Shown: positions 2 through 31,600 of the stretch, one piece after another
Layout: each line of letters begins with the position of its first letter
Position numbering within the stretch: position 1 is the first letter of the stretch
Virus record (IMG/VR): IMGVR_UViG_3300034168_000206
Span: 1-41,452 of that record
Source of the DNA: a virus
Direction: 5' to 3' (one strand)
DNA length: 41,452 nucleotides
Translations under genes and position numbers: made by a program
The notes under the pieces: model-generated
The model's input: only the letters and a program-made list of their open reading frames with translations
The model's database searches: none
Told to the model about the DNA's origin: nothing

Positions 2-982
2 GATGCTAAAGCAGATACTGCTGCCCCTACATTTACAGGAACAGTTGTTCTTCCATCTACAACATCAATTGGAACAGTAACCTCAACAGAATTAGGATAT
101 ATTAGTGGAGTAACCTCAGCAATTCAAACTCAGATATCTGGAAAGCAATCAGTTGTTGCTAATGTTTCAGATGTTGAGATTGGATATTTAGATGGCGTTA
201 CTTCTCCAATTCAAACTCAATTAGGAAATAAGCAAGCAGTTGTTGCCAATGTTTCAGATACTGAAATAGGATACCTTGATGGAGTTACATCCGCAATTCA
301 GACCCAACTTGACGCTAAACTAGCATCTGCAACAGCAGCATCAACTTATGCCCCTCTAGTATCTCCAGCACTTACTGGAACACCTACAGCACCATTGGCA
401 GTAACTGGAACTAATACAACGCAGGTTGCTACAACAAGTTTTGTACAGCAAGAACTTGCCGTATTAACAACTGGCGCACCAGCAGCACTAAATACGCTTG
501 ATGAACTGGCAGCAGCCCTAGGTGATGATGCTAACTATGCAGCTACAATTACAACAGCACTTGGAAATAAGGCTCCACTTGCCTCTCCTACATTTACAGG
601 AACAGTTACTCTTCCTGCAGCAGGAATTGTATTTACAGATGGCACACAAGCAAAAGAAGGTGTTCCTTCTCGTACACCAATTATTGCAAAGACAGATTCT
701 TACACACTGTCAGCATTAACTGAAAGAGATTCATTGATTGAAGTTGCAAAAGCAACAGCAACAACAGTTACAATCCCAACAGATGCAACTCTAAACTTCC
801 CAATTGGAACATCTATTGATATTCTTCAAACTGGAGCGGGACAAGTAACGATTGCCCCAGTATCAGGAACAGTTACAGTCAATGCTACACCTGGATTAAA
901 GCTTCGTACAACTTGGTCATCTGCAACTCTTCTTAAAAGAGCAGCAAATACTTGGGTTGTATTTGGCGATCTAACAGCGTAA
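2..982 (+). CDS. Tail fibre protein, 5' end outside window
   Basis: The frame is open from base 2 to the stop at 980-982, so at least 326 residues are present and the true start lies upstream; the ATG at 395 is internal. The protein has three 29-residue repeats beginning with E-[LI]-G-Y (codons at 89, 176 and 263) and two copies of a P-T-F-T-G-T-V segment (near 26-46 and 593-609), both typical of phage fibre and tail-collar proteins. The last ~100 residues are Thr/Val-rich and look like a beta-sandwich tip domain. It probably sits at the virion periphery and contacts the host surface. The next gene follows after 30 bases. The receptor cannot be read from the sequence. Confidence is high for fibre-like, low for exact role. 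Confidence 0.75.
   Translation, partial: DAKADTAAPTFTGTVVLPSTTSIGTVTSTELGYISGVTSAIQTQISGKQSVVANVSDVEIGYLDGVTSPIQTQLGNKQAVVANVSDTEIGYLDGVTSAIQTQLDAKLASATAASTYAPLVSPALTGTPTAPLAVTGTNTTQVATTSFVQQELAVLTTGAPAALNTLDELAAALGDDANYAATITTALGNKAPLASPTFTGTVTLPAAGIVFTDGTQAKEGVPSRTPIIAKTDSYTLSALTERDSLIEVAKATATTVTIPTDATLNFPIGTSIDILQTGAGQVTIAPVSGTVTVNATPGLKLRTTWSSATLLKRAANTWVVFGDLTA
89..325 (+). repeat. 87-base tandem coding repeats in tail fibre
   Basis: Three units of 87 bases (29 codons) start at 89, 176 and 263; the third is cut short after about 21 codons. They share the pattern E-x-G-Y-x-x-G-V-T-S-x-I-Q-T-Q. The second and third are closest, suggesting recent duplication or recombination within the fibre shaft. 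Confidence 0.8.
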
Positions 983-1012: not shown

Positions 1013-1933
1013 ATGGCATCAGGTAAAAAAATAGGCAAGAAGTCTCAAGCGTCAAATGACTTCTTAGAGCCAATGGCTCCTACTGGTGTAACAGCAACAA
1101 ATGTTGGAACTGGAAGAGCCTTTAATAATGGAGCAGCTACAGTTACATTTTCTTTGCCTGCACTATCTCCTGCTGCTTCATCATTTACTGTAACCTCATC
1201 ACCTGGCGGATATACTGGCACTGGAGCATCTTCTCCAATTACAGTAGCTGGACTTCAATCTGCCACAGCCTATACATTTACCGCAACAGCTACTAATGCT
1301 GCAGGAACATCTGTAGCCTCTTCTGCTTCAGCTTCTATTACCGCAACAACAGTTCCAGCAACTATGTCTGCTCCAACCCCAACTGCTGGAGTTAATCAAA
1401 ACTCAATTGCTTTTTCAGCACCAGCAACTGGTGGATCTACAATTACAGGATTTACCGTAACAGGCTCTGATGGTACATCTGGAACTGGAGCATCTTCTCC
1501 AATTGTTATTGCAGACACTGGTGGAACTTCTCAGACATATACAGTTAGGGCAACTAATGCTAACGGTACTGGTTCAGCTTCATCTGCATCTGGATCTATT
1601 ACCACTACCCCGCCATTTTTCCCACCATTCTTCCCACCTTTCTTCCCGTTCTTCCCACCATTCTTCCCTCCGTTCTTCCCACCTTTCTTCCCACCATTCT
1701 TCCCATTCTTCCCACCATTCTTCCCACCTTTCTTCCCTCCATTCTTCCCACCGTTCTTCCCATTCTTCCCATTCTTCCCATTCTTCCCACCATTCTTCCC
1801 ACCTTTCTTCCCACCTTCATTCCCATTCTTCCCTCCATTCTTCACAGCACCTTCTTGCCACACTTGCAATGGCTCTGATGCCTACTGGGGCTACTATGGC
1901 TGTGGTTACCCAGGAGAAGTTGTTTGCAACTAA
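1013..1933 (+). CDS. Fn3-like protein with Phe-Pro repeat and Cys-rich tail
   Basis: 306 residues, with an AGGAG ribosome site 7 bases before ATG. Residues ~20-110 and ~112-198 are two Ser/Thr/Ala-rich beta domains resembling fibronectin type III repeats, each with a Y-T-[FV]-x-A-x-N strand. Residues 200-277 are almost pure Phe and Pro (36 Pro, 41 Phe, one Ser) in PPFF and PFF units. The last 29 residues are Tyr/Gly-rich with four cysteines (C282, C285, C297, C305), which could bind metal or form disulfides. No signal peptide or membrane span is visible. Position after the tail fibre suggests a virion surface or adhesion protein. The function of the Phe-Pro block is unknown; it is an obvious candidate substrate for the prolyl-hydroxylase-like enzymes encoded just downstream (inference). 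Confidence 0.7.
   Translation: MASGKKIGKKSQASNDFLEPMAPTGVTATNVGTGRAFNNGAATVTFSLPALSPAASSFTVTSSPGGYTGTGASSPITVAGLQSATAYTFTATATNAAGTSVASSASASITATTVPATMSAPTPTAGVNQNSIAFSAPATGGSTITGFTVTGSDGTSGTGASSPIVIADTGGTSQTYTVRATNANGTGSASSASGSITTTPPFFPPFFPPFFPFFPPFFPPFFPPFFPPFFPFFPPFFPPFFPPFFPPFFPFFPFFPFFPPFFPPFFPPSFPFFPPFFTAPSCHTCNGSDAYWGYYGCGYPGEVVCN
1610..1843 (+). repeat. Phe-Pro low-complexity coding repeat
   Basis: 234 bases encode 15 PPFF-type units (one is PPSF) and six PFF units. The Phe codons are almost all ttc while the Pro codons vary cca/cct/ccg, so the protein pattern is kept while the DNA drifts at third positions. The base repeat is 12 long with 9-base deletions of one Pro codon. Confidence 0.9.
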
Positions 1934-1981: not shown

Positions 1982-2428
1982 ATGATTAAAGATATTGATA
2001 TTCAACATAGTTTTAGTAGAGATAAGTTAGCAGGAGCACCATTAGTATTTGTTATTGATGGGGAGTGTCTTTATAATTTTAATGCAACACTTCCTGGCAT
2101 TGACCTATTTACAAAAAATAAAGGCATTACAGATATATCTGCTGACTACCCAGAGCACGATGGGGCTACACTTCAAATTGTTAAAGAAAATGATGAAATT
2201 GAAGTCTATCAAACTAACGAATACTTTGGTTCAGTTTTACTAAGCAATCCAACAGTTCTTGATTTAAATGATTATCCTTATGGACATCATGTTATGTCTC
2301 CAGATGCCTCATTTGATGGAGAAAAGTTTATTATTAAAAATAAAACGGTTGCTGAACATGTACGATTAACGGAATGGCATATTCACAATCCTAAAAATCC
2401 AAATTATGTACCCCATCCAAACGTTTAA
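1982..2428 (+). CDS. Hypothetical protein, 148 aa
   Basis: I do not recognise a family. The ATG has a good AAGGAG site 6 bases upstream and the frame fills the gap between the Phe-Pro protein and the Cys-rich protein. The product is acidic and soluble-looking, without membrane segments. It has a hydrophobic beta strand near residues 19-26 (A-P-L-V-F-V-I-D) and ends in a His/Pro/Asn-rich tail. Regular alternation of charged and hydrophobic residues suggests a mostly beta fold. Lying between tail-fibre-type genes and the oxygenase block, it could be a small virion or chaperone protein, but nothing in the sequence proves this. Confidence 0.65.
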   Translation: MIKDIDIQHSFSRDKLAGAPLVFVIDGECLYNFNATLPGIDLFTKNKGITDISADYPEHDGATLQIVKENDEIEVYQTNEYFGSVLLSNPTVLDLNDYPYGHHVMSPDASFDGEKFIIKNKTVAEHVRLTEWHIHNPKNPNYVPHPNV

Positions 2429-2464: not shown

Positions 2465-2698
2465 TTGTCAGAAAAAAGCGCATGGGAAAAATATAAAGAA
2501 AAAAATGGGGTAACTCCACTAGATATGCTTAATCCACATACAAAGCGTATACCACATGAATCTGCTCAAAAAAGATTTGATATTTGTAAGGAGTGTCCAG
2601 AATTAATAAAACTTACTTCTCAGTGTAAAAAATGTGGTTGTTTCATGAAAGTTAAGACTACTCTTGAGATTGCTAAATGCCCACTAAATAAGTGGTAA
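2465..2698 (+). CDS. Small Cys-rich putative zinc-binding protein, 77 aa
   Basis: It starts at TTG with an AGGAG site 6 bases upstream; no in-frame ATG is available. The C-terminal half carries C41-x2-C44, C54-x2-C57-x-C59 and C72, ending in K-C-P-x-N-K-W. This spacing suggests a zinc ribbon or similar metal-binding module. From memory, small proteins with this C-x2-C-P-E...C-K-K-C-G-C-F-M pattern occur in other aquatic phages beside 2-oxoglutarate oxygenase genes; their function is not known to me. It precedes the oxygenase cluster by 73 bases and may work with it. Confidence is high that it is a real gene, low on function. Confidence 0.7.
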   Translation: MSEKSAWEKYKEKNGVTPLDMLNPHTKRIPHESAQKRFDICKECPELIKLTSQCKKCGCFMKVKTTLEIAKCPLNKW

Positions 2699-2711
2699 CA
2701 CTCGCTATATA

Positions 2712-2741
2712 TTGCTTTAAATAGCACTTTTATGCTATAAT
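2712..2741 (+). promoter_or_regulatory. Promoter of oxygenase cluster
   Basis: TTGCTT (2712-2717), an 18-base spacer and TATAAT (2736-2741) preceded by TGC give a recognisable -35 and extended -10. Transcription would start near 2748, 24 bases before the first oxygenase ATG. A short inverted repeat, GCTAT...ATAGC (2704-2708 and 2721-2725), overlaps the -35. Confidence 0.55.
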
Positions 2742-2771
2742 AAAACTATACCATTAAAAGATAGGAATCAC

Positions 2772-3491
2772 ATGCAAGCATATGATGAAAACGATAATCA
2801 CTGGTTTACTAAAGATAGATCAGAAACAGCCTCAACAAGAATTTCCCGATTGATGCCTCAAAGTAATATCCCGATTAGCAATCCAGGATTAGGTTTAAAT
2901 ATTTATCATAATGTTTTTTCAAAAGATGATTCAGATAGATATATCAATACTCTTGAGCACAATCTTTCAGGGGATAATAAGTATAAGTGGTCTGAAGCAC
3001 AGGTAACAAACTCTACTGTTCCAATCAAAAAAGCAAGAGATGCTGTAGACTTTAAATATAAGCAAGAAAATCTTGGTCCAAGAGATGAACATAATGCTGA
3101 TCTGATTGATTTGCATGAAGAGATATATCAAAAACTAAAATTGTGCATAGATGATTATGCACACTACTGGGGAATAAATGTTACATATTATGAAGCATTT
3201 AACTTTGTAAAGTATGAAGGTGAAGGAACTCACTTTAATATACATGCTGATCATGGTCCAGCTTATAATTGTACTGTTTCTGCAGTAATTTATATTAATG
3301 ATGATTACGAAGGTGGAGAAATTAAGTTTCCAAGATTAGATAATTTTGTTCATACCCCAAAGGTTGGAGATATAGCAATCTTTCCTTCAAACTATATATA
3401 TGAGCATGCTTCTTTGCCAATGAAAACAGGAACAAAATATTGTGTTGTCATTATGACAGACATTAATCTTTTAGGTCACACAGGAAATTAA
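2772..3491 (+). CDS. 2OG-Fe(II) dioxygenase 1 (prolyl-hydroxylase type)
   Basis: 239 residues, first of seven related enzymes. The family uses Fe(II), O2 and 2-oxoglutarate to hydroxylate a substrate, with succinate and CO2 as co-products. The iron triad is H158-x-D160 and H212. The strand Y-I-N-D-D-Y-E-G-G-E-I-x-F (residues 174-186) is the core signature of the P4H-like double-stranded beta-helix. The residue expected to hold 2-oxoglutarate is K222 (T-G-T-K-Y) rather than Arg. A TAGGA ribosome site and a promoter lie upstream. It is most similar to the next gene, with matching segments E-A-F-N-[FY]-[VI]-K-Y-E and D-H-G-x-x-Y-N-C-T. The substrate is unknown: protein proline, a nucleotide base or a small molecule are all possible. 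Confidence 0.85.
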   Translation: MQAYDENDNHWFTKDRSETASTRISRLMPQSNIPISNPGLGLNIYHNVFSKDDSDRYINTLEHNLSGDNKYKWSEAQVTNSTVPIKKARDAVDFKYKQENLGPRDEHNADLIDLHEEIYQKLKLCIDDYAHYWGINVTYYEAFNFVKYEGEGTHFNIHADHGPAYNCTVSAVIYINDDYEGGEIKFPRLDNFVHTPKVGDIAIFPSNYIYEHASLPMKTGTKYCVVIMTDINLLGHTGN

Positions 3492-3504
3492 CATAGGAGA
3501 AAAT

Positions 3505-4176
3505 ATGAATACAGAAAATACAACATCAGCACCTTGGAGCAGCTATGAAGAGATTGCTCCAGGAATTTTTGTTTACCACGACGTTCTGCCAACAGAATTA
3601 AACATTATTGATAGGCTGGAAGAGGTTTTGAATAATGACAGACCAAACTATAATTGGCAACCAGCCTATGTTGGTTATCAACAAAGAATGCCAGAGTATA
3701 GAGATTGCGTTGATTTTAAATTTAAGAAAACAGACATTGAAAGAGATGTATCTCCAGACTCCTTAAAACTTCAGGGCATTTGGCAAGACTGTTATGATAG
3801 ACAAAAGTTAGCAGTAGAAGATTACTGCAGACGCTTTAATATTAATAACCTAAGATACTGGGAAGCTTTTAATTACATTAAGTATGAGCCTGGTCAACAC
3901 TTTATGGAACATCATGATCATGGATTTTCATATAACTGTACATTGTCTCTAGTTGCTTATATTAATGATAATTTTGAAGGCGGAGAATTATTCTTTAGAC
4001 TTCAAGGAATTACGTATATTCCAAAAGCTGGGGATGTTGTATTGTTCCCATCTAACTTTATGTATCCACATCAAGCTAAGGTTGTTCATTCTGGGACAAA
4101 GTATTCTTTAGTAACAATGCTTGACTATAGCGATAAGTATCACACTCCAGAGATGTATCAAGAGACTGGATCATAA
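3505..4176 (+). CDS. 2OG-Fe(II) dioxygenase 2
   Basis: 223 residues, starting at ATG with TAGGAG upstream, 13 bases after dioxygenase 1. The triad is H136-x-D138 and H189, with K199 (S-G-T-K-Y) in the 2-oxoglutarate position. The core strand is Y-I-N-D-N-F-E-G-G-E-L. The near-identical layout with its upstream neighbour points to an old tandem duplication followed by divergence in the N-terminal third. The N-terminal 120 residues, which usually choose the substrate, differ more than the core. Its stop overlaps the next start (TAATG), so translation is probably coupled. Confidence 0.85.
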   Translation: MNTENTTSAPWSSYEEIAPGIFVYHDVLPTELNIIDRLEEVLNNDRPNYNWQPAYVGYQQRMPEYRDCVDFKFKKTDIERDVSPDSLKLQGIWQDCYDRQKLAVEDYCRRFNINNLRYWEAFNYIKYEPGQHFMEHHDHGFSYNCTLSLVAYINDNFEGGELFFRLQGITYIPKAGDVVLFPSNFMYPHQAKVVHSGTKYSLVTMLDYSDKYHTPEMYQETGS

Positions 4177-4889
4177 TGTCAATTATCACTGCTTATAGAA
4201 AAACACCAATGGCATTGAATATAGAGCCAATGTCTATAAAAAGAGATTGGATGGATGAAACTCCACAGGGTCATGCCTATAGATGTCATCCAGTCACATC
4301 TGCCAATGTTATTGGCTGGAGTATATCTTCACCAGTAGACATAAAGTTCATCTGGAATGGTGTTAATGATACAAGCGGAGATAATGTTACTATACTTGAA
4401 GGAAAAGAGTATGTTTATACTGGAAGAGGACAGTCAACAGTTAGTTTTAATACTGGATTTATTTTAAGAACAGATGAAAAAACTAGCGTATTGACAATAA
4501 CTCCACAAAACTATTTTAATGAAGATGTTGAGGTTATGTCCTCTCTCATATCTACTTCTTTTTTAAATACAGATTTTCCCTTAGCAATTAAATGCAAGGT
4601 AGCAAATAAAGAAATTACTATTAAGGCAGGTTCACCCATAGCAACCATAATTCCTATCTCTTTAACTTCTTTAAAAGATGAGTCTGTAGAGATAGTCAAC
4701 TTTGTACACACACAAGAATATTCTGATGCTTTAAACTCATATGGTAAAGCAGCTCAAGAAGTAAACCAGAGTGGAGAGTGGACTGACTGGTATAGAAATG
4801 CTGTAAATGAAAAAGGCGAGTCTATTGGATCACACGAAGTTAAAAATTTAAAATTAAACGTTATTGATAATACAGGAGGCAAACAGTGA
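4176..4889 (+). CDS. DUF6065-like protein
   Basis: 237 residues. The segment R-C-H-P-V-T-S-A-N-V-I-G-W followed by S-P-V-D-I-K-F-I-W-N-G (residues ~36-61) and a later A-G-S-P-I-A-T-I-I-P-I (~152-162) resemble the DUF6065 family, of unknown function. The last motif recalls the closing strands of a cupin-like beta barrel. It shows no H-x-D iron triad like its neighbours, so it is not simply another oxygenase. It overlaps dioxygenase 2 by one base and the following gene by four, hence is co-translated with the cluster. It could be a partner, substrate adaptor or small-molecule-binding protein. The family call is from remembered motifs and is moderate. Confidence 0.6.
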   Translation: MSIITAYRKTPMALNIEPMSIKRDWMDETPQGHAYRCHPVTSANVIGWSISSPVDIKFIWNGVNDTSGDNVTILEGKEYVYTGRGQSTVSFNTGFILRTDEKTSVLTITPQNYFNEDVEVMSSLISTSFLNTDFPLAIKCKVANKEITIKAGSPIATIIPISLTSLKDESVEIVNFVHTQEYSDALNSYGKAAQEVNQSGEWTDWYRNAVNEKGESIGSHEVKNLKLNVIDNTGGKQ

Positions 4890-5611
4890 AGATCATTGAG
4901 TTTATAACTAATAGGCCTTGGCTAAATAAAGATAGTAAATCAAAGCCAATACCAATTTCAAGATCAATGCCACAGTGGTATAAAGAAGCTGATAGGTTTG
5001 CTAAAAAACCAGATGGAGAATATTGGATAGGACCAGACAAAGGAAAGATCCCTACATGGAAAGCCTGTCCTGCAATTCTTGATATTTTAACAACTGGGTA
5101 TAGCCTTGTAACCCCCTGTGATATAGAATTTTTCCTTGATGGCGCAGGGCAAATTGATGTTAAAACTGAAGATCCAATGTATAAAGATTTTGCTACAAGA
5201 AGAACTCCCATGCCACAATTTCGTCATCCAGAAGGATATTATAATTATCACTTTGCATGGATGCCAGATTGGGCAGTAAAGGTTCCAGATGGCTATAGCG
5301 TTTTATATGTTGCTCCATTTAATAGATACGATCTTCCAATTATGACAGTTTCTGGAATTATTGATAATGACAAAGTTAACTTGCCTGGATCTTTTCCATT
5401 TTTTGTACAAAAAGGTTGGACTGGAGTTCTTCCAGCAGGAACTCCTTATGCTCAGTTGCTTCCATTTTTGAGGGAAGATTGGAAATCCGAAATAACTGTT
5501 CCAACTGCTTCTGAAATGATGAATCATAATATAGAAAATAGTAAAAAATATCGTGTCCCAGATGGCGGAGTTTATCAAAAAGAAGTCTGGACTAAGAGAT
5601 TCTACGAATAG
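4886..5611 (+). CDS. DUF6065-related hypothetical protein
   Basis: 241 residues, starting at GTG inside the previous stop (overlap GTGA) with an AGGAGG site upstream. It shares the upstream neighbour's plan: R-S-M-P-Q-W-Y (26-32), then C-P-A-I-L-D-I-L-T-T-G-Y-S and T-P-C-D-I-E-F-F-L-D-G, then a C-terminal A-G-T-P-Y-A-Q-L-L-P-F matching A-G-S-P-I-A-T-I-I-P-I. The two are therefore distant paralogues. Similar proteins occur in cyanophages and other aquatic phages as far as I recall, with no assigned activity. It ends 18 bases before dioxygenase 3, where a new promoter starts. Confidence 0.6.
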   Translation: MKIIEFITNRPWLNKDSKSKPIPISRSMPQWYKEADRFAKKPDGEYWIGPDKGKIPTWKACPAILDILTTGYSLVTPCDIEFFLDGAGQIDVKTEDPMYKDFATRRTPMPQFRHPEGYYNYHFAWMPDWAVKVPDGYSVLYVAPFNRYDLPIMTVSGIIDNDKVNLPGSFPFFVQKGWTGVLPAGTPYAQLLPFLREDWKSEITVPTASEMMNHNIENSKKYRVPDGGVYQKEVWTKRFYE

Positions 5612-5615
5612 GAAA

Positions 5616-5624
5616 TGGTATAAT
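5616..5624 (+). promoter_or_regulatory. Extended -10 TGGTATAAT, leaderless start
   Basis: TGG-TATAAT ends five bases before the ATG at 5630. A transcript starting at the usual distance would begin at or next to that ATG, giving a leaderless message. No ribosome site fits between them, though GGAAA at 5611 could act on read-through RNA. Confidence 0.55.
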
Positions 5625-5629
5625 AAAAC

Positions 5630-6310
5630 ATGAAACAAAATAACGAGTCGTACACAGTAGTTAAAAGAACACCATCTATAACTCCATCTGGTTGGTTTGG
5701 AGATAGCAAAGACATGATTGTCGAGCTAGAAAATTTTATGACCCCAGAAGAGATTGAGTTTTTAGAAAAAGCTGCTAAGTCTTTGACAATTTGGGATGTA
5801 ACTGAAAGCCATATGAATGAAAATGGGACTGTTACATATGACTCAAACTATTGGAAAGACAGAGTTGCTACTAGCCCAACATTAAATAAAAATGATCCAA
5901 CCATCGCACCAGTAATTGCTGGATTATTTCAAAGATTAAAACCAATTGTTGAAGAATTTTATAAGGTAGAAGTCGTTCCAACTGGAACAACTATTGTTAA
6001 ATGGCTTCCTGGACAATTTCAAAAACCTCATGCGGATAAAGAGTTACATGAAGGTCCTGATGCTGGAACTCCTAATGACTTTCCAAATTATGACCTATCT
6101 AGTCTATTTTATTTAAATGATGACTATGAGGGTGGAGAATTATACTTTCCTATACAAGGTGTACAGTTTAAGCCTAAAAAAGGAGCTGCATACTTCTTCC
6201 CAGGAGATAAAAACTATATTCATGGAGTTACTGAAATCAAAAGTGGCCTAAGATTTACATGTCCATTTTTTTGGGAAATTACTAAGCATACAGGAGATAG
6301 GCAACCATAA
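5630..6310 (+). CDS. 2OG-Fe(II) dioxygenase 3
   Basis: 226 residues with triad H134-x-D136 and H198, and R208 (S-G-L-R-F) as the canonical 2-oxoglutarate anchor. The core strand Y-L-N-D-D-Y-E-G-G-E-L-Y-F is the best match to consensus of the seven. The region F-M-T-P-E-E-I-E-F-L (37-46) is the helix typical of P4H-type enzymes. It opens a second transcription unit with its own -10 box placed for leaderless translation, and the following gene overlaps its stop (TAATG). The ending K-H-T-G-D-R-Q-P is short and basic. Function is hydroxylation by family; the target is unknown. Confidence 0.85.
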   Translation: MKQNNESYTVVKRTPSITPSGWFGDSKDMIVELENFMTPEEIEFLEKAAKSLTIWDVTESHMNENGTVTYDSNYWKDRVATSPTLNKNDPTIAPVIAGLFQRLKPIVEEFYKVEVVPTGTTIVKWLPGQFQKPHADKELHEGPDAGTPNDFPNYDLSSLFYLNDDYEGGELYFPIQGVQFKPKKGAAYFFPGDKNYIHGVTEIKSGLRFTCPFFWEITKHTGDRQP

Positions 6311-7197
6311 TGACATATCCTTGGCCAAACAATAATAAACTTGAGTCAATAGAAATATATCCAAATATTGTTGTGTACAAAAATCTTTTTAAAGATATTG
6401 AAAAATCTTATAAAATTTTAACAGATTCTTTATCAGAAACAGAAGATGGTTTGTTTAATCCTTGGACCACTTGGTCTGTTTTTGGGGAATACTTAAATCC
6501 AATAACTCCTCAATTTTCAATGAATGATAGATATGGAAATATGAAAGATGTAGAAACATCAACAGAAACGCAAGAAAATCATAAAAACTTTGTAATTGAA
6601 ATGATGGACAATTTTTATTTAGCTACAGAAGACTATATCAAGAGCCATAATTTAGACGTAGATTTAGATGCAATGTCTATAAATGATGATGGGAATCCTA
6701 TTCCAACATGGAGATGGGCTGGTGGAACTATAGGTAAATATCATGTAAGTAATGAAGACAGTAGAGTTGGAATGAACTATCATTCAGACTATATAAGAGA
6801 GCAAGGTCATACCCCAGGTTATAAGTTTGTAATAACATCTACAATATATTTTAATGATAACTATGAGGGTGGAGAAATTGATTTTGCAATGGGAGACAAG
6901 CTTGTAAAGTATAAACCAGAAGCAGGAGATGTTTTAGTTTTTCCATCAGGGCACCCAGACTATCTGACAGAAGAAGGAAAACCATATTTACATGGAGTTA
7001 TGCCATCATATAAAAATAATAAGTTTTTGTCAAGAATGTATTGGCAAAAATATCAAAAAGGAACTGATGATTGGTATGAAAAAGAAAAAGAGTTTGGAAA
7101 AGATGTTTGGGCGGAAATGCAAAAAGATTTAGACGAACAGTTTAGACTAAAGCACCCGCAAAGAGCTGTAATAGAAAATGGAGTAAGAATACAATGA
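6310..7197 (+). CDS. 2OG-Fe(II) dioxygenase 4, long form
   Basis: At 295 residues this is the longest of the seven. The triad is H158-x-D160 (Y-H-S-D-Y) and H228 (Y-L-H-G-V); the 2-oxoglutarate anchor aligns with K238. A Trp-rich insert (P-T-W-R-W-A-G-G-T, 132-140) precedes the first iron ligand, and a charged ~50-residue helical extension follows the core (from ~248). The added parts could form a distinct substrate pocket or a dimer contact. It overlaps both neighbours (TAATG at its start, ATGA at its end), so it belongs to a translationally coupled run. Confidence 0.83.
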   Translation: MTYPWPNNNKLESIEIYPNIVVYKNLFKDIEKSYKILTDSLSETEDGLFNPWTTWSVFGEYLNPITPQFSMNDRYGNMKDVETSTETQENHKNFVIEMMDNFYLATEDYIKSHNLDVDLDAMSINDDGNPIPTWRWAGGTIGKYHVSNEDSRVGMNYHSDYIREQGHTPGYKFVITSTIYFNDNYEGGEIDFAMGDKLVKYKPEAGDVLVFPSGHPDYLTEEGKPYLHGVMPSYKNNKFLSRMYWQKYQKGTDDWYEKEKEFGKDVWAEMQKDLDEQFRLKHPQRAVIENGVRIQ

Positions 7198-7952
7198 ACC
7201 TAGAGAATAAAGTTAGGCTAACAAAAGACATAGTTGTTTATAAAAATTTTATAAGCAAAGAGGATTGTCAAAAGATGATTCAAGCATTAGATGCTCAGGC
7301 AGATAATGGTGCACTCTCTTGGATGCCTATTTCATTTTATGAATCATACTCTTCTGTCCTTCCACAAGACAATGATCAAGAGTTGCTTGATGCTGAACTA
7401 TCTCCAACTATTTTTTCAGACATTGAAAAAACAATGCCAGAGGCAATTGCTTCAGTTCATGACTTAGATCCAAAGACAATTTCTAAGATTGGATACCATA
7501 CACAAAAGTGGGAGCCAGGAGCATACGCAAGAATTCACTCTGATAATACAGATGCTCAAGGAAATTCAGGAGCATTTACAAGAAGTCGTTATGCAGGGTT
7601 CCTATATCTAAACGATGACTTTGAAGGGGGACTGCTTAAGTTTCCAAGTCATAACATAGAGATTAAACCAGAAGTTGGAATGCTTGCTGTTTTTGACGGG
7701 GGATTTAGCAACATGCACGAAGTCTCCCTAATAGAAAGTGGAGTAAGATATACCATTGGATCTTTTTGGGATGACAGAGAAGAAGATGCTTACCCACAAG
7801 AATTAAGAGATGCCTGGGCTGCAGAAATGAAAGAGACTAGAGCAAAACAAGAAATTGAAAGAGCCGAATGGCAAGATCTTTTAAAAGAAGGATGGAAGTT
7901 GGATGCTGCTGGAAATAAATATAAGGTAGAAGATTTAGGGAATAATGTCTAA
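7194..7952 (+). CDS. 2OG-Fe(II) dioxygenase 5
   Basis: 252 residues, starting four bases before the end of dioxygenase 4. The triad is H115-x-D117 and H175, with R185 (S-G-V-R-Y) as anchor. The core strand is Y-L-N-D-D-F-E-G-G-L-L-K-F, with Leu replacing the usual Glu after Gly-Gly. The last ~60 residues (from D193) form a charged helical tail rich in Glu, Lys and Trp, similar in kind to the tail of dioxygenase 4. The pair may share a structural role for that tail. Confidence 0.85.
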   Translation: MNLENKVRLTKDIVVYKNFISKEDCQKMIQALDAQADNGALSWMPISFYESYSSVLPQDNDQELLDAELSPTIFSDIEKTMPEAIASVHDLDPKTISKIGYHTQKWEPGAYARIHSDNTDAQGNSGAFTRSRYAGFLYLNDDFEGGLLKFPSHNIEIKPEVGMLAVFDGGFSNMHEVSLIESGVRYTIGSFWDDREEDAYPQELRDAWAAEMKETRAKQEIERAEWQDLLKEGWKLDAAGNKYKVEDLGNNV

Positions 7953-8604
7953 TTTTCTAACAAGCATACTAAAAGAAAATAATTTTCAGGTTGAAGAAGT
8001 TACTGATGATATTGTTTTAGTTAAAGATTTTTTTTCTAAAGATGATCTAGATCAAGTTTTTAATATTATAGACTCAACTCCAAATGAAGAGTGGTTTATA
8101 GAATATCATGCTAACTTAAAAAACTTTTGTATGCAAAAATTTGGCAGAGATGATGTTGATAATTTAGTTGCAGAAGGTAAATTTGAAATAACTCAAAACT
8201 GGCAAGATAAAAATTTAAATATAGGACAACACCCATTTCAAAAAACCTTGTTCGATAGACTAAATAATTTAGTTCAAAATGTTGACAACACAATAGAGTT
8301 AAGTGGTTTTGCAACTATTCAAAGGATGCAAGAGGGTGTCGAGTTAAAAGCTCACACAGATCAAGATACAGATCCATCGATTAGGTACGCTGCCATTCTG
8401 TATTTAAATAATGATTATGTTGACGGAGAGTTGTTTTTTCCAAACAATGGCTTAGAGTTTAAGCCTGATCCTGGGTCAATGCTTATTTTTCCAGGCACAG
8501 CAGAATATAATCATGGAGTAAAGCATGTAGGTCCAGGACCAATTAGATATGTTTTGGTTGGATTTATTAAGGTTAAAAATTTTTATGATAACAATAAATA
8601 CTAA
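7945..8604 (+). CDS. 2OG-Fe(II) dioxygenase 6
   Basis: 219 residues, overlapping the previous gene by eight bases. The triad is H137-x-D139 (A-H-T-D-Q) and H190 (Y-N-H-G-V), with R201 as anchor. The core strand Y-L-N-N-D-Y-V-D-G-E-L-F-F is the most divergent of the set, with V-D replacing the usual E-G. There is no C-terminal extension. The active-site residues are all present, so it should be catalytically competent. Confidence 0.84.
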   Translation: MSNFLTSILKENNFQVEEVTDDIVLVKDFFSKDDLDQVFNIIDSTPNEEWFIEYHANLKNFCMQKFGRDDVDNLVAEGKFEITQNWQDKNLNIGQHPFQKTLFDRLNNLVQNVDNTIELSGFATIQRMQEGVELKAHTDQDTDPSIRYAAILYLNNDYVDGELFFPNNGLEFKPDPGSMLIFPGTAEYNHGVKHVGPGPIRYVLVGFIKVKNFYDNNKY

Positions 8605-8615
8605 AGGAGAAATAA

Positions 8616-9347
8616 ATGAATAAAGAACTACTAGACCCAAAGGTATACTATTATACTGACGCAATTGAAAATTTTGACAAATTTAAACAAGTTTGGAAAG
8701 AGTTAGACACTCTTGAGCAATATGATGAGTTAGGGGTAAATGTTTGGAACCCTTGGACATCTTCTAACGATAAAACTTTTATCTACGGAGAAACAAAAAC
8801 TTTTGATGCTAATGCAATAAGCAATCTTAGTGGAGATGTAGCAGAAAAAAGTAAATATATTTATGATGCCGTTATGACTACAATGTATAATGTTTGTAAA
8901 GACTATGCATCCTCTATGGGAGACTTTGATGAGCCAAGACTTTTTCCAACATTTAACATAAAAAAGTACAATACTGGAATGGCTATGGGGGCGCACTTTG
9001 ATCAACTCGATGGCGATAAGACATTGAGATATTCTTTGGTAATGTATTTAAACGATGACTGTGAAGGCGGAGAAATTTCTTTTCAGTTAAAGGACTATGA
9101 TGGTGGATGGACTAGCTCAGAAGGTTGGGTAAGTGGCGCACCAGCAGTAGAGTTAGACTATGATCTTGCAGTTGCAAACAAAGCTATTAGTTTTGGTGTA
9201 AAACCTAAAGAAAATAGCGTTGTAATATTTCCAGCATATGCTCCATATTTTCACACGGCACACACAGTTAAGTCTGGCGTAAAGTATATGATTCCTGGAC
9301 ATTGGATCCATAACAATATGGAGCTTAATCAAAGCCAGAGCATGTAA
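8616..9347 (+). CDS. 2OG-Fe(II) dioxygenase 7
   Basis: 243 residues, preceded by a strong AAAGGAGAAATAA ribosome site. The proximal ligands are H127-x-D129 (A-H-F-D-Q); the distal His is H213 or H216 (Y-F-H-T-A-H), and K223 takes the 2-oxoglutarate position. Between the core strand (Y-L-N-D-D-C-E-G-G-E) and the distal His lies a ~35-residue Trp/Gly/Ser insert (D-G-G-W-T-S-S-E-G-W) absent from the others. Its stop abuts the TTG start of the dehydrogenase, linking the two in expression. Confidence 0.83.
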   Translation: MNKELLDPKVYYYTDAIENFDKFKQVWKELDTLEQYDELGVNVWNPWTSSNDKTFIYGETKTFDANAISNLSGDVAEKSKYIYDAVMTTMYNVCKDYASSMGDFDEPRLFPTFNIKKYNTGMAMGAHFDQLDGDKTLRYSLVMYLNDDCEGGEISFQLKDYDGGWTSSEGWVSGAPAVELDYDLAVANKAISFGVKPKENSVVIFPAYAPYFHTAHTVKSGVKYMIPGHWIHNNMELNQSQSM

Positions 9348-10016
9348 TTGAAAACAGCAATTGTAACTGGAGCAAGTAAGGGTGTTGGATTAGCAACAGT
9401 TAAGCGCTTGTCTGAAAATGGGTATAAAGTAATTGCTGTTTCAAGAAACCTTTCAAAAGTCTCTGAACTAATATCTGATAATGTTGAGGTATATAATCTA
9501 GACATTACAGACTCTAAAGCAATAGAAGTGTTCTTTGAAAAATACAAAGACATTACTTTAGACCTTTTAGTTAATAATGCTGGAGGAGGGTCAGGCCCAA
9601 CTCATATTATTAATGAGACTCCAGAAAACTTTAGAAAAGCTTATGATATAAATGTAACTGGCCCTATGTACCTATCTCAACTATTTGCTCCATGTATGGA
9701 AAAGTCAGAGTCTCCAACAATTATCTTTATTACTTCTTTTGGAGGAAAGGTACCATATCGTGGTGGAGGAAACTATACAAATGCGAAGAGAGGTGAACGT
9801 GGTCTTATTGATACAATGAGACTTGAGTTTCCTCAATTTGGGATTAAGATTACAGAAATCTGTCCAGCAACTATTGATACCCAAGAACAAAAACGGGATC
9901 AAGCATTAACCGCAGAAGATTTAGCAGAAGCAATTTACTGGGTAGGATCATTACCAAGTCATGTTAATATAAATGAAATTGAAATCTGTCATATTCACAG
10001 CAGCAAGTATGGTTAA
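9348..10016 (+). CDS. Short-chain dehydrogenase/reductase
   Basis: 222 residues of the classical SDR family, which oxidise alcohols or reduce ketones with NAD(P). Visible motifs are T-G-A-S-K-G-V-G (7-14, cofactor loop), N-N-A-G (76-79), N102, catalytic S130 and Y143-x3-K147. R33 at the end of the second strand favours NADP(H). The start is TTG directly after the oxygenase stop; the cofactor motif begins six residues in, so no shorter start is possible. Placement suggests it acts on the same product as the oxygenases, for example oxidising a new hydroxyl to a ketone, but this is inference. SDRs are so broad that the substrate cannot be named. Confidence 0.85.
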   Translation: MKTAIVTGASKGVGLATVKRLSENGYKVIAVSRNLSKVSELISDNVEVYNLDITDSKAIEVFFEKYKDITLDLLVNNAGGGSGPTHIINETPENFRKAYDINVTGPMYLSQLFAPCMEKSESPTIIFITSFGGKVPYRGGGNYTNAKRGERGLIDTMRLEFPQFGIKITEICPATIDTQEQKRDQALTAEDLAEAIYWVGSLPSHVNINEIEICHIHSSKYG

Positions 10017-10178: not shown

Positions 10179-12209
10179 ATGTCAGATGTTTTTTCATTTC
10201 GTTTATCAGAGGATTTTGTAACAAAATATAGTAATACTCCAGCACCGTTTGGATTTGCAGATGCGGGGGAAAACTCTTTAGGAGAAATTACTTTTATTCG
10301 TACCTATTCTCGTGTAAAAGAAGACGGAACAAAAGAACGTTGGCACGAAGTTTGTCGTCGTGTTATTGAAGGCATGTATTCAGTTCAAAAAAATCATGCT
10401 AAAGATAATCGTCTAGGCTGGAATGACAATAAAGCTCAGAAGTCTGCACAAGAAGCATTCCAAAGAATGTTTGAATTAAAGTGGACCCCTCCAGGTCGTG
10501 GTATGTGGACATTTGGAACAGCCATGACTATGGAAAAGAAAAACTCAGCAGCGCTACAAAACTGTGCAATGGTTTCTACAAAAGACCTTGACAAGAATGA
10601 TCCAGGGGCTTTGTTTGCTTGGGTTATGGATGCCTTAATGCTTGGTATTGGTGTAGGGTTTGACACAATAGGACAAGAGAAGAATTTTTCTATTTATGCT
10701 CCAACAGAACCAGCAGTTATCTTTGAAATTCCAGATACTCGTGAGGGCTGGGTAGAATCAGTACGTATACTATTAAACTCTTACCTAAGATCAAATCAAC
10801 CTATCCAAAAGTTTAATTATGACCTTATCAGACCTCTAGGAGCACCAATTAAGGGCTTTGGAGGGGTCGCTAGCGGTCCAGCACCACTCATTGCATTACA
10901 CGATAAGATCAATCATGTCATAGGCTCTAGAGCAGGGGAAATCCTAGATTCTCGTGCTATTACAGACATCGTCAACCTTATTGGAACATGTGTTGTTTCA
11001 GGAAATGTCCGTCGTTCTGCAACCTTAGCTTTAGGTGCTCCAGGAGATGAAGATTTTATTAATTTAAAAAACCCAGAAGTATTCCCAGAACGTAACTCCT
11101 ATGATTCAGATAATCCAGGATGGGCATGGATGTCTAATAATTCTATTGCAGCAACAGTTGGAATGGATTATGAAAAATATACAGATTTAATTGTAAACAA
11201 TGGAGAGCCAGGTTTTATTTGGCTTGATGTTGCTCGTAACTATGGTCGTCTTGCAGATCCAGCGGATGGAAAAGACTATCGTGTTATGGGCTTTAATCCT
11301 TGTGCGGAGCAGCCATTAGAATCATACGAACTTTGTACACTTGTAGAAGTGCACTTAAACCGTCATGATTCCAAGGAGGACTTCCTCAAGACATTAAAGT
11401 TTGCTTACCTTTATGGTAAGACTGTAACTCTTCTTCCAACACATTGGCAGCAAACAAACGGTATTATGCAACGCAACCGTCGTATTGGTACATCTCTTAC
11501 TGGTATTGCATCATTTGCAGATCAAAATGGATTACCAATTGTTCGTGAATGGATGGACGAAGGTTATAACAAGATACGTTATTATGATAAAAAATATTCA
11601 GAGTGGTTGTGTGTTCGTGAATCAATTCGTGTAACAACTGTTAAGCCATCTGGATCAGTTTCAATTCTTTCTGGTGCAACCCCTGGGGTTCACTGGGGAC
11701 CTGGAGGAAACTTCTTCCTTCGTGCTATTCGTTTTGGAAACACAGATCCAATGCTTCATTTGTTTAAAGCAGCAGGGTATAAAATTGAAGACGATCTAGT
11801 ATCAGCAAACACATCAGTAGTTTATTTCCCAGTTAAATCAGGTCATCCAAGATCTGAAAAGGATGTAACCCTGTTTGAAAAGATAAACCTTGCTGCAACA
11901 GCTCAAAAGTATTGGTCTGACAATGGAGTATCTGTAACTCTATCCTTTGATAAGGAGACAGAGTCAAAGCATGTTCCAACAGTTTTGCATATGTACGAGG
12001 GACAACTAAAGGCAGTATCATTCCTTCCAATGGGAAATCATACTTATCCACAACAGCCATATACTCAGATCACAGAAGAAGAATATGATTACTATGTTGG
12101 TCGTATCGGTCATATTGATTTCTCTGCTATTTATGACGGGGTAGATAATCTTGAGGCACTTGGCGAAAGCTATTGCACTACAGACTACTGTGAGATTAAA
12201 ATTAAATAG
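10179..12209 (+). CDS. nrdJ: Class II (B12-dependent) ribonucleotide reductase, monomeric type
   Basis: 676 residues. It makes deoxyribonucleotides using adenosylcobalamin, needing neither O2 nor a second subunit. Active-site residues match the Lactobacillus leichmannii triphosphate reductase pattern: C129 (N-C-A-M), then N-P-C375-A-E377-Q and C386 (E-L-C-T-L), with the C-terminal redox pair C666 and C671 (C-T-T-D-Y-C). The R-R-S-A-T-L-A-L-G stretch (278-286) matches the loop joining specificity and active sites. Length is slightly below the ~740-residue reference. It has a private promoter and ~53-base leader with GAAAGGTGG before ATG. Arginine is written mainly as CGT, unlike the AGA-rich oxygenases. 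It supplies DNA precursors during infection and depends on host cobalamin. Confidence 0.93.
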   Translation: MSDVFSFRLSEDFVTKYSNTPAPFGFADAGENSLGEITFIRTYSRVKEDGTKERWHEVCRRVIEGMYSVQKNHAKDNRLGWNDNKAQKSAQEAFQRMFELKWTPPGRGMWTFGTAMTMEKKNSAALQNCAMVSTKDLDKNDPGALFAWVMDALMLGIGVGFDTIGQEKNFSIYAPTEPAVIFEIPDTREGWVESVRILLNSYLRSNQPIQKFNYDLIRPLGAPIKGFGGVASGPAPLIALHDKINHVIGSRAGEILDSRAITDIVNLIGTCVVSGNVRRSATLALGAPGDEDFINLKNPEVFPERNSYDSDNPGWAWMSNNSIAATVGMDYEKYTDLIVNNGEPGFIWLDVARNYGRLADPADGKDYRVMGFNPCAEQPLESYELCTLVEVHLNRHDSKEDFLKTLKFAYLYGKTVTLLPTHWQQTNGIMQRNRRIGTSLTGIASFADQNGLPIVREWMDEGYNKIRYYDKKYSEWLCVRESIRVTTVKPSGSVSILSGATPGVHWGPGGNFFLRAIRFGNTDPMLHLFKAAGYKIEDDLVSANTSVVYFPVKSGHPRSEKDVTLFEKINLAATAQKYWSDNGVSVTLSFDKETESKHVPTVLHMYEGQLKAVSFLPMGNHTYPQQPYTQITEEEYDYYVGRIGHIDFSAIYDGVDNLEALGESYCTTDYCEIKIK

Positions 12210-28600: not shown

Positions 28601-31600
28601 GTATTTATCAAAACATGATTAAGCGTCTAGAAGATTCTAGAGGCGCTAACTGGAGAGAACTACATGGTGTTCACTCATCAGTAATTAAAAGCACAAAGAA
28701 GCCACTAACCCCTGCAGCAATAAAGAAAATAGAAGATGAAATTACATTAAGAGCAAGACAAAAAGGACATGGTGCATCTTTATCTGACAAAGACTTTATG
28801 GATGGCTTTGCTAAATGGGCACAAGGAAATGGTTTTGCTAAGGGTGGAGTAGTTCCAGGATACATGGCTGGAAGAACTGGCTTAACCTATGGCGCAGCAG
28901 CAGCAACGAAAGTTTCAGGGGCAAAAGAAGCAGCAACAGTTGCCAGTCTAGAATCTAGAACAAGATTACCACTAACTCCACTGCCTCCTGGCATGCCATT
29001 TAAAATTAGTAGACTTGAATCTGGAATGTCACAAATTCAAATAGGTGGTCAATCTATGACCGCAAAAACGTCAGAAGTTTCTAAGTTTGAAGAAAGATGG
29101 AAAGAGTTTGCAGCAGCCTATCCAGATAAAACAATTTATGCCCAAAAAGTAAAAGATTTAGAAGCAAGAATTTTAGATTATAAACTTAATCCTAGAATAG
29201 ACTCTAAAACTGGTCTCGAAAAGCCATTAAGATTATCTGGAACTGGCAATAATGGTTTATTTGCTAATGTCAATCCTTGGTCAGGATCAAGAACTAGAAA
29301 AACTCCACCAGAAGTAAAAAGTAGATGGCAAAAGGTTCTTGCTGACCCTAGTAAAAATAAGCCAGCCCAAAAACTATTAAATTATTATGCAGAAGAGCTT
29401 GCTTCTGTAAAGAAGAATCTTGTTGGCAAAGGTCCTGGAAAAATTTCAGAAGCAGATGCGCTTGCTGTATTAAAAGCACCAGACTTTAAAACTGCAATAG
29501 AGAGAGTCAGATCTGGCGAAGGCGGAATCGCAGCAAGTCATATAAAAGCTACTGGTAAAAATAGAGATTTAGAGTTTTGGCCAGCAGACAATGTTGTGAG
29601 AGATCAAACAGTTGTAAACTCTGGAATGAATGCACTTTCAAAAAGGATGGGCGCAATTCACGTAACAACTGAAAAAGAAGCATTGAGAGCAATTAGTAAA
29701 TTAGAAAGTAAAAAACATCAATATAAAGGTTGGGGTGCAAAAAATAAAACAGACACTTGGACAACTACAGATATAATTACTGAACACCTGCTAAGGAAAA
29801 GAATTCGTGATGGTTATTATAGAGATCAGAAGTTTAAAGATTCAGACTATATGCCAGCAGATACTCTTGCATTATCAAAAGGAATTTTTTCAGTTCCAGG
29901 GCCAAAGGGTGCGGGAGATATTCAACCAGCAATGCTATCTCCTGGAGAAGCAGTTATCCCAGCAAAGGCTGCATCTAAATATTCTTCATTAGTTTCAGGA
30001 ATGATTAATGGAACAATTCCAGAACATGGAAAAGGCAAGGGTGGAGTTCCAAGACCTCTTCCTGGATACACCATGGTCGATAAGGGTGATGGTTGGGGAG
30101 CAACTCCAGTAGCAAATACACCAGCACCTTCAAGGGGAGCAGATGTTCTTGGAAAAGCCACAGCTCAAGTTAGCAAGTTTGGAACGGCGGTAGTAACTGG
30201 AACTAAAGCAGTTGCTAATAATGCTAGGGTTCAATCAGCAAGTGCAAAAGCAATGGATAGAGTTAGAAAGATTGATGCTCGCCTGTCATCTATGGGTGGT
30301 CCTTCTGGTCCTGGTGGTCCAGGTGGTCCTAGCGGTCCTAAACCACATGGTGGTTATTGGACAGGGTACGGAAAAGTTGCAACCCATGATCAAGATGGTA
30401 AGGCATTAACTAAGGAACAAAGAATTAATGCAAGACAAGATTATAGAATGAAGTCATCTCAAACCATGATGGGTGTAGGAATGGCAGCCATGATGATTCC
30501 TATGCTTGCTCAAGGAATTGCACAAGGATCACCTGATTCAACATTAGGAAAAGCTGCAGCCAATAACATGCCAGCAATTATAGGAGCATCTATGCTTCCA
30601 ATGATATTGCCACTTCTTAATTCACCGCTAAAGAAATTAATTGCCACAGTAGTAGCATTAGGCGCTGCATTTAAGATGCAGAGTATGGCAATTAGAAAAT
30701 CTATTTCTGATGGAGTTAAACAGGGACAATCTATTGGAAATACCATTGAGTCTTTAGAAGGTTTTGGATCTATACTTGGATCAATGTCTGCAACACAGAT
30801 CATGGACAAAAAGAGAGAAGCAAACAGACTTGAGATAACTCCAATTGATCAAACATTTGGTAAAGATTTTTCAGGTAGTGAATTTGGAAAGAAGTTTATT
30901 GCTGAGTTTAACGCCTACGCAAAATCAAACGGTAGAGGTGCAGCTAAACAACTAGGAACAAAACTTGCTTCAGCAGTAAGTCAAGGAGTATTGTCTGCAG
31001 ATCAAGCAGAATCAATTATTGTAAATCTTGCAAGAGATATGGGAGATCAATCTTTAGAGATTGAAGCTAGAGGATTTTTAAGAGAAATCATCGGCCCCGA
31101 TGGAAAAGATCTAAAAGATAATCCTATTGGTGTTCAATTAAGAATATTGAAGAATCAAAAACAACTTACTACTCAGATGCAGAATATTTTTAGTGATGTT
31201 GTTGAAAAAGAAATGGGCGGATGGTTTGCTAACCTCATGCAGAATGTGCCTGGAGCAGGGGCTGTTGGACTAAGGACTGGAATCAATAAACGTGAGGGGT
31301 TTGAGCTTGCAGGAAGCACAGTCGGTGGCGCTCTTCTTGGCGCCCGTATTGCTAGTCAACTTGATAAAACAGGGGTTATAGCTGGGGCTAGAGCGCTACC
31401 TGCTGCAGCAACTTTTGCAAAAGAGTCACAAATAGCAGGAACTTTAGGAAAGGCAAGATTTGGCGCAGGAGTTATAAGAGGAGCAGCAGCATTAGGAACA
31501 GGTGCTTCTGCAACTGGCGCAGGAGTACTTCCTGGAGCAATTATATTAGCAACAACACTTGCTGCAGATCTAGCTCTTAGAAAGTATCAACAAGGTAGAG

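Follow-up and report, generated by a model that had tools for sequence, protein, structure and literature searches.

What do seven different 2-oxoglutarate/Fe(II)-dependent (2OG) oxygenases, encoded in a row by one phage, act upon? The question is raised by IMG/VR virus record IMGVR_UViG_3300034168_000206, a stretch of 41,452 bases with 36.9% GC, referred to here as the window. Its oxygenase genes, ox1 to ox7, form a cassette with two DUF6065-type genes, a Cys protein and a short-chain dehydrogenase/reductase (SDR); shortly upstream lie a gene for a protein with a long Phe-Pro (F/P) array and, before it, one for a tail-fibre/collar-like protein (TF). We find that many uncultured phages carry a row of enzymes resembling prolyl 4-hydroxylases (P4Hs) behind a Pro/Phe-repeat gene of the tail-fibre region, and we think it probable that the block is a phage module that hydroxylates the Pro-aromatic repeat protein of the tail-fibre region encoded just upstream. 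This reading builds on what the data give directly, namely the gene content, the intact iron triads, the low dN/dS, the recurring adjacency of arrays and oxygenases and the P4H-like fold modelled for ox2.

Arrays and oxygenases in virus contigs

A first-pass annotation of this DNA had named in advance the lack of co-occurrence of PPFF-type arrays with oxygenases as grounds for abandoning its proposal; co-occurrence was found, across different head types and across Pro-aromatic array variants. Virus contigs were scanned, blind to oxygenases, for DNA encoding FFPPFFP, which gave at least 119 loci; they are not a random sample and are partly related, loci within a lineage are not independent, and p-values are nominal. 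Under a first array definition 87 of these loci had an in-frame array, with an oxygenase in 60 of the 87 and three or more in 40, and among the matches listed 16 of the remaining 32 loci had an oxygenase as well. A later definition recognised 93 array ORFs among the at least 119 loci, 66 of them with a downstream oxygenase. Among the matches listed, that oxygenase lay within 2 kb in 60 cases and on the same strand in 58, three of the 93 array ORFs had an oxygenase upstream only, and 24 had none in the locus, 17 of these with less than 2 kb of sequence left. Where at least 6 kb followed the array (35 arrays among the matches listed), 32 had an oxygenase, 32 an ox2-type enzyme, 31 DUF6065 and 28 an ox3-type enzyme.

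Two controls at the locus level gave oxygenases in 2 of 118 collagen-like loci and in 1 of 86 loci with the reversed pattern. The latter set had held 110 new loci, from which 24 were dropped for F/P arrays, and its sole oxygenase locus, L623, shows an F/P-type ORF at its edge; loci already in the FFPPFFP scan were not recounted in either control. When a Pro-array definition was applied to the reversed-pattern set, an oxygenase was present in 11 of 25 loci with an array versus 2 of 85 without, and such later Pro-array counts, here and below, lean toward association because the definition was set after some loci had been inspected.

Whole records of at least 30 kb gave a similar contrast. PF13640 genes were present in 30 of 33 records with the array pattern (median 6; four or more in 26), these being all records of that length among 80 of the at least 119 loci, and in 4 of 49 control records, with at most 2 each, the controls being a hand-picked subset (28 collagen-like and 21 reversed-pattern). 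The three array-pattern records without PF13640 are L234 and L244, which have no in-frame array, and L176, which has one. DUF6065 (PF19541) was found in 24 of the 33 records versus 2 of 17 controls. One control record, G060, carries two DUF6065 genes (C1 64433-66640) and no PF13640 gene.

Among 80 capsid relatives, 21 are at least 30 kb long. The four with F/P arrays (G001, G005, G007 and G017) have 6, 7, 5 and 4 PF13640 genes, and the other 17 have 0 to 3, except G013 with 6; the array of G007 was found by a looser pattern only, and isolated single matches in G004 and G018 were not counted as arrays. At the locus level the capsid set was uninformative (oxygenase in 0 of 2 loci with a Pro array, which was non-aromatic, and in 11 of 78 without). 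In a further set of 115 loci, searched for the F/P pattern with one genome per species, arrays of more than four units occurred only in L329 and L360, both with oxygenases; loci with short F/P matches had no oxygenase, and L307 has an oxygenase and no F/P match.

The array or the fibre gene

Oxygenases might instead modify other proteins of the tail-fibre module (TF/collar, or the fn3 and Cys-rich regions) or act on non-proline residues, with the array as a mere passenger. A TF gene does lie upstream of the array in the mapped loci that reach far enough, and Asn, Asp and Tyr abound in some arrays. A scan by the TF motif LGDDANYA, which gave at least 120 loci, separates the two features: among the matches listed, 20 of the 21 loci that have a Pro-rich array also have an oxygenase, versus 13 of the 99 array-less loci. 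The exception, the 3-kb locus L762, has a Pro-rich ORF, the displayed part of which contains a single aromatic residue. A first count with a strict F/P pattern (oxygenase in 8 of 8 loci with an array and 25 of 110 without, among the matches listed) was revised because that pattern missed variant arrays, as inspection of the array-less oxygenase loci revealed. Low-entropy ORFs of the TF loci tell the same way: among the matches listed, 19 of 19 rich in Pro and aromatics lay within 3 kb of an oxygenase, as did 2 of 3 rich in Pro only and 10 of 71 others, although several of the 19 are near-copies of one another. The climb in oxygenase rate with the array and the contrast between ORF types both speak against this alternative, which we hold to be unlikely. 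A PVTPTP array without aromatics (L729 2-553) adjoins a single oxygenase.

The cassette in relatives

A search with ox2 returned 282 stretches, of which 80 loci were kept; because they were fetched by ox2, they are no test of the array association. Most of 28 mapped loci share the order TF - array protein - ox1 - ox2 - DUF6065a - DUF6065b - ox3 - (ox4) - ox5 - (ox6) - ox7 - (SDR), with swaps of DUF6065b and ox2 seen and portal identity falling to 48%. The SDR is not constant among them, and the ribonucleotide reductase that follows the block in the window does not always adjoin the cassette.

The cassette is also found with other head genes. Fourteen array-pattern records were mapped completely or for the greater part, and five of them (G025, G029, G035, G039 and G044) gave no blastp match at 1e-5 to the portal, protease or capsid of the window, yet carry the array, oxygenases and DUF6065-type genes; G029 has a 23% tape-measure match to the window. 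G045 and G049 also lack head-gene matches, but these records may end too soon, and no array was seen in G049. L329 and L360, on contigs titled as Verrucomicrobiales and Gammaproteobacteria metagenome-assembled genomes, encode a TF, an array, a glutathione-peroxidase-like protein and ox3- and ox2-type enzymes. The glutathione-peroxidase-like protein, between array and oxygenases, was matched at 8.2e-6 in L360, just under the cut-off, and recognised by eye in L329, which additionally has DUF6065 and a TauD-family oxygenase.

Several observations weigh against a module devoted to the array. Array-less TF loci still have one or two oxygenases in the 13 of 99 cases counted above, and seven array ORFs with 2.3-9.3 kb of sequence downstream lack an oxygenase in their locus. 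Of the 25 Pro-array loci in the reversed-pattern set, 14 are without one; several of these are short, but L560 has 4.3 kb left. The collagen control shows no link between oxygenases and its Pro-rich ORFs, which almost always lack aromatics (1 of 44), and G013 combines its six PF13640 genes with no F/P pattern. Eleven ox2-fetched loci, L035-L045, show no F/P array, while the mapped members carry ox2-, ox3-, ox5- and ox7-type genes, DUF6065 and SDR, and the F/P pattern is absent from three whole records of this group; more broadly, 35 of the 80 ox2-selected loci have no Pro array in the available stretch, many of them short. Finally, the P4H fold also serves other substrates. Such cassettes without a visible F/P array, like the oxygenases near array-less TF genes, favour targets elsewhere in the fibre module, and we conclude from them that either some members act on other proteins or their arrays differ from those searched.

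ox2 and the other oxygenases

The AlphaFold2 (AF2) model of ox2 most resembles protein prolyl hydroxylases. Nearly all of its 50 listed PDB matches are prolyl hydroxylases, 6n1f and PolD 9blq being exceptions; they include the Pseudomonas P4H with EF-Tu, Dictyostelium and human PHDs, the algal P4H with (Ser-Pro)5, PBCV-1 vCPH and the Bacillus anthracis P4H. An ox2 profile matched the B. anthracis P4H at about 5e-9, PiuC-type hydroxylases at about 2e-6, LH3 at about 1e-5 and vCPH at 2.5e-5. By these predictions ox2 is the best prolyl-hydroxylase candidate of the cassette. The first-pass inference that some of the oxygenases modify the Phe-Pro protein is thus partly supported: the co-occurrence strengthens it greatly and the kin of ox2 fit it, with proline as a candidate target residue.

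All seven oxygenase genes are complete, as had been claimed, with every ORF open across 2772-9347 and only short overlaps. All seven exceed the PF13640 cut-off of 27, with 33.2-47.5 bits; the whole-record search listed six and missed the fourth (6310-7197), which was scored later. The iron triad (H-x-D and a distal H), the basic 2OG residue (K/R ten or eleven residues past the distal H) and the Y-[LIF]-N-[DN]-[DN] strand are present in each, and the remaining genes of the block (two DUF6065-type genes, the Cys protein and the SDR; Table 1) were also correctly recognised. The oxygenases are not recent copies, since pairwise identity is 20-28% (40% for ox1/ox2), and their sequences point to paralogues of long standing or to independent acquisition. 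The HxD/E...H...K/R pattern is conserved in 749 of the 754 oxygenase ORFs of loci L007-L285 that are at least 185 aa long and lie clear of the locus ends. Between the window and L011, dN/dS was 0.03-0.28 over nine cassette genes, values that are imprecise because dS was 1.0-2.3; in the comparison with L055 two of nine genes yielded no estimate. Searched alone, ox6 gave weak matches only, WelO5-type enzymes among them. PHROG labels like 'DNA endonuclease V' on oxygenase matches were regarded as erroneous.

Auxiliary oxygenases could serve metabolic reprogramming or DNA repair, and the available portions of published cyanophage papers do make proposals on 2OG/nitrogen level and DNA repair (PMC3037559, PMC9146016). 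Lowering 2OG would need no seven divergent enzymes of low dN/dS behind fibre genes, and PHROG and Pfam revealed no repair gene in the cassette, which leaves this role barely plausible for the block. Modification of host or virion glycans or lipids, for which one might cite the SDR that closes the cassette in some phages, is likewise highly improbable: the SDR is not constant, and no glycosyltransferase or sugar-nucleotide gene was matched among the scanned window ORFs.

DUF6065 and nucleotides

The AF2 model of DUF6065b has a dUTPase fold. In VIA-align all 50 rows listed were dUTPases (Z 9.3-10.2, 115-139 residues aligned, rmsd 2.7-6.3), and Foldseek also found dUTPases, with a best E of 2e-4 and a TM by query length of about 0.3. 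In the DUF6065 alignment 20 of the 22 b-type rows carry an I[IV]D[NSD][DE] motif similar to dUTPase catalytic motif III, the one examined of motifs I-V, and none of the 24 a-type rows does; DUF6065a thus appears by sequence to be a paralogue of DUF6065b without the motif-III-like residues. A DUF6065 profile against PDB sequences gave nothing convincing (best E 0.08). By tblastn in named phages DUF6065a had no match and DUF6065b matched 49 haloviral records; in halovirus HRTV-7 the homologue lies beside a thymidylate synthase.

The predicted dUTPase fold tells against a purely protein-directed module and is the strongest hint that TET/JBP-like oxygenases, with this partner and the neighbouring ribonucleotide reductase, might modify DNA or nucleotides. 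The motif in the b-type proteins, the HRTV-7 neighbourhood, the reductase after the SDR and a sub-cutoff Tet_JBP match in ox3 all fit that idea. It leaves unexplained why Pro-aromatic arrays accompany the oxygenases in phages with different heads, and the motif is missing from every a-type row, the ox2 profile finds protein hydroxylases and the reductase is not constantly beside the cassette; we therefore regard nucleotide modification as quite improbable. TET/JBP DNA oxygenase was rejected as an identity for ox1-ox7, as ox3 scored 22.2 bits against a cut-off of 34.9 and the other six gave no match at E 0.001.

The array protein and its variants

The proposed substrate of hydroxylation, the upstream Phe-Pro protein, has exactly the 36 prolines attributed to it, with 41 Phe in an array of 78 residues (window 1610-1843); the single codon for neither is a Ser, and there is no Gly. 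The composition was thus described correctly at first pass, and what that description left out is an fn3 match, marginal at 26.2 bits against a cut-off of 25, the Cys-rich tail and the 148-aa ORF before the block. The Pro codons (24 CCA, 9 CCT and 4 CCG; of the 37, the final one falls just past the array) vary only in the third base. A collagen-like protein was considered and rejected for this array, which has no G-X-Y triplets. The array DNA is also open in other frames (1470-1982 on the plus strand, Ser/His; 1531-1869 on the minus strand, Gly/Lys/Asn repeats), which are probably by-products of the 12-nt repeat.

At 306 aa the window's protein is shorter than that of L007 (328 aa; 7443-8426), with flanks identical in the stretch compared, which indicates that the array gains or loses length quickly. 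Array types seen across loci include FFPP/FFP, PPYF, PPGFF(S/A/G), PPFFPPSF with Cys, and NPPPYDN, and the type changes between loci while the oxygenases persist. What comes after the array varies: a Cys-rich tail (the case in the window), a short 'xFK' end, an intein-like domain or some other sequence. The intein-like (Hint/BIL) domain stands directly behind F/P or Y/F-P arrays in relatives, and several such proteins end in HN-K. A profile of this C-terminal domain, built from relatives and not the window, matches the bacterial intein-like 2lwy at 1.8e-8 and the intein 5bkh at 2e-7; Pfam Hint/intein matches of the relatives' array proteins were all under cut-offs, and L694 and L735, with other array types, match the Hint superfamily weakly. 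L735:7343-8299 combines a PASTA domain, an NPPPYDN array and the weak Hint match, and oxygenases adjoin it.

Gene layout of the window

The window encodes tailed-phage structural proteins (portal, head protease, capsid-type protein and a tape measure of 3,654 aa), the head protease being nearest, at 49%, to Streptomyces phages such as Moab. Upstream of these the genes run in the order TF, F/P-array protein, 148-aa ORF, DUF6171, ox1, ox2, two DUF6065-type genes, ox3-ox7, SDR and ribonucleotide reductase (Table 1), and the LGDDANYA block of the TF recurs upstream of array proteins in relatives. A megablast of window positions 1-25000 against named phages gave no match, and a tRNA scan of the window found none. 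Two repeats lie within the tape-measure gene, one of GGTGGTCCTGCTGGTCCT in tandem (window 30295-30339) and a run of CAG (35405-35468).

Table 1. Features of the tail-fibre and oxygenase region of the window, with array proteins of relatives
Feature	Position	Strand	Evidence and remarks
TF, tail-fibre/collar-like protein, 3' part as listed	395..982	+	PHROG tail fibre and minor tail families; frame stays open upstream to base 2
Array protein: fn3 domain, 78-residue F/P array, Cys-rich tail	1013..1933	+	PF00041 9.1e-06, 26.2 bits; tandem repeat of 12 and 45 nt
148-aa ORF between array protein and cassette	1982..2428	+	Homologues in same slot of L007, L055; no PHROG or Pfam match
DUF6171 Cys protein, 77 aa	2465..2698	+	PF19668 8.1e-07, phrog_13558 9.9e-18
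ox1, 2OG-Fe(II) oxygenase	2772..3491	+	PF13640 41.8 bits; triad intact
ox2, 2OG-Fe(II) oxygenase, most constant cassette member	3505..4176	+	PF13640 47.5 bits; AF2 pLDDT 93.1
DUF6065 protein a, without I[IV]D[NSD][DE] motif	4176..4889	+	PF19541 2.4e-32
DUF6065-like protein b, predicted dUTPase fold	4886..5611	+	phrog_7084 1.7e-33 (family common to DUF6065a); no Pfam match at E 0.001; AF2 pLDDT 92.4
ox3, 2OG-Fe(II) oxygenase	5630..6310	+	PF13640 36.9 bits; Tet_JBP 22.2 bits, sub-cutoff
ox4, 2OG-Fe(II) oxygenase	6310..7197	+	PF13640 34.7 bits
ox5, 2OG-Fe(II) oxygenase	7194..7952	+	PF13640 33.2 bits
ox6, 2OG-Fe(II) oxygenase	7945..8604	+	PF13640 41.6 bits
ox7, 2OG-Fe(II) oxygenase	8616..9347	+	PF13640 39.5 bits
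Short-chain dehydrogenase/reductase (SDR)	9348..10016	+	PF00106 1.4e-40; in some relatives only
Ribonucleotide reductase, after SDR	10179-12209		
Array proteins of relatives with an intein-like C-terminal domain	L028:2330-3670, L031:3897-5216, L226:6071-7390, L266:2791-4125, L021:3214-4509		

Relation to known systems

Several oxygenases in one phage are already known, and the opinion at first pass that many different ones are not ordinary was too strong. The cultured Synechococcus phage S-SCSM1 has 24 2OG oxygenase genes, which weakens the argument from rarity; the part of its description available to us reads them in terms of host metabolism and reports a measured virion proteome, with 974 peptides and 45 proteins detected (PMC9602691). 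Seven of them flank tail-fibre genes in an 18.5-kb region, and the short tail fibre SSCSM1_245 (L811:5117-6382) has a Pro/Arg/aromatic low-complexity stretch. S-SCSM1 is thus like the window in having many oxygenases near fibre genes and such a stretch in a fibre; it differs in that no DUF6065 is named in the 18.5-kb region and its stretch is RxPRxF-like. With its virion proteome measured, the fibre idea might be testable on existing data. Among the six named-phage regions read, a Pro-aromatic stretch was seen in S-SCSM1 only; those of S-H9-1, S-MbCM7, Melnitz-3 and S-T4 had no Pro-rich low-complexity ORF, and that of ACG-2014b had one without aromatics.

In the excerpts available, S-SZBM1 has nine oxygenases (PMC9146016) and numerous oxygenases occur in 14 of 16 cyanophages (PMC3037559). 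These partial texts propose roles in DNA repair and in 2OG/nitrogen or host metabolism (PMC3037559, PMC9146016, PMC9602691), with multiple functions, protein modification in general terms or iron uptake named in others (PMC10436341, PMC13184970, PMC10611076). A Baltic survey, in the portion available, calls viral prolyl 4-hydroxylase use cryptic and cites hydroxyproline in PBCV-1 proteins (PMC9301287). No earlier proposal of an oxygenase-fibre-array link was found in open-licence literature, and no open-licence paper matched a search for DUF6065.

PBCV-1 vCPH (5c5t) is, like ox2, a virus-encoded enzyme with the P4H fold, but it belongs to an algal virus, whereas the window holds a multi-enzyme phage cassette with DUF6065 beside a tail-fibre array. 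Eriksson in 1999 reportedly described 4-hydroxyproline in viral proteins and, by the title, the PBCV-1 enzyme with peptide substrates. The closest solved relatives of ox2 are the B. anthracis P4H (3itq, 5hv0) and the Pseudomonas P4H/EF-Tu complex (4iw3; 1.6e-10 with the model), which differ from it in identity (about 20%) and in their substrates; we know of no array cassette with either. Plant extensins, mussel adhesive and collagen are repetitive Pro-rich structural proteins matured by prolyl hydroxylases. They are cellular and secreted, unlike the phage array, and the likeness is drawn by analogy.

A possible route to a hydroxylated fibre

The adjacency of arrays and oxygenases suggests that phages harden or decorate their own fibres. 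In the mechanism we propose, P4H-type oxygenases, with the ox2 type as core, would hydroxylate prolines of the extended F/P array to which they bind, and the other oxygenases might hydroxylate other positions or phage-specific arrays and fibre parts. The array would then be the substrate, proline the modified residue and the array protein a component of the virion. Modification may yield a stiffer, more polar and perhaps adhesive or protease-resistant fibre extension, as in collagen, extensin and mussel adhesive. DUF6065, the frequent partner of dUTPase fold, could at a guess be a trimeric scaffold. More tentatively, and with considerable doubt, the cassettes may represent a widespread and so far unrecognised phage system for a chemically matured fibre, akin to extensin or mussel adhesive but of viral make. 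In it, fn3 or PASTA domains would anchor a Pro-aromatic array, a P4H team with a repurposed dUTPase-fold partner would hydroxylate it at many positions, and its C-terminus would be finished by disulfides or by intein-like (Hint) self-cleavage that could join it to a further molecule.

Adjacency to Pro-aromatic fibre arrays offers a concrete, testable substrate for the numerous unexplained 2OG oxygenases of aquatic phages. Should the hydroxylation reading prove true, phages would be producing hydroxylated structural proteins in bacterial cells, and their enzymes and repeats could serve as a bacterial source of hydroxyproline materials.

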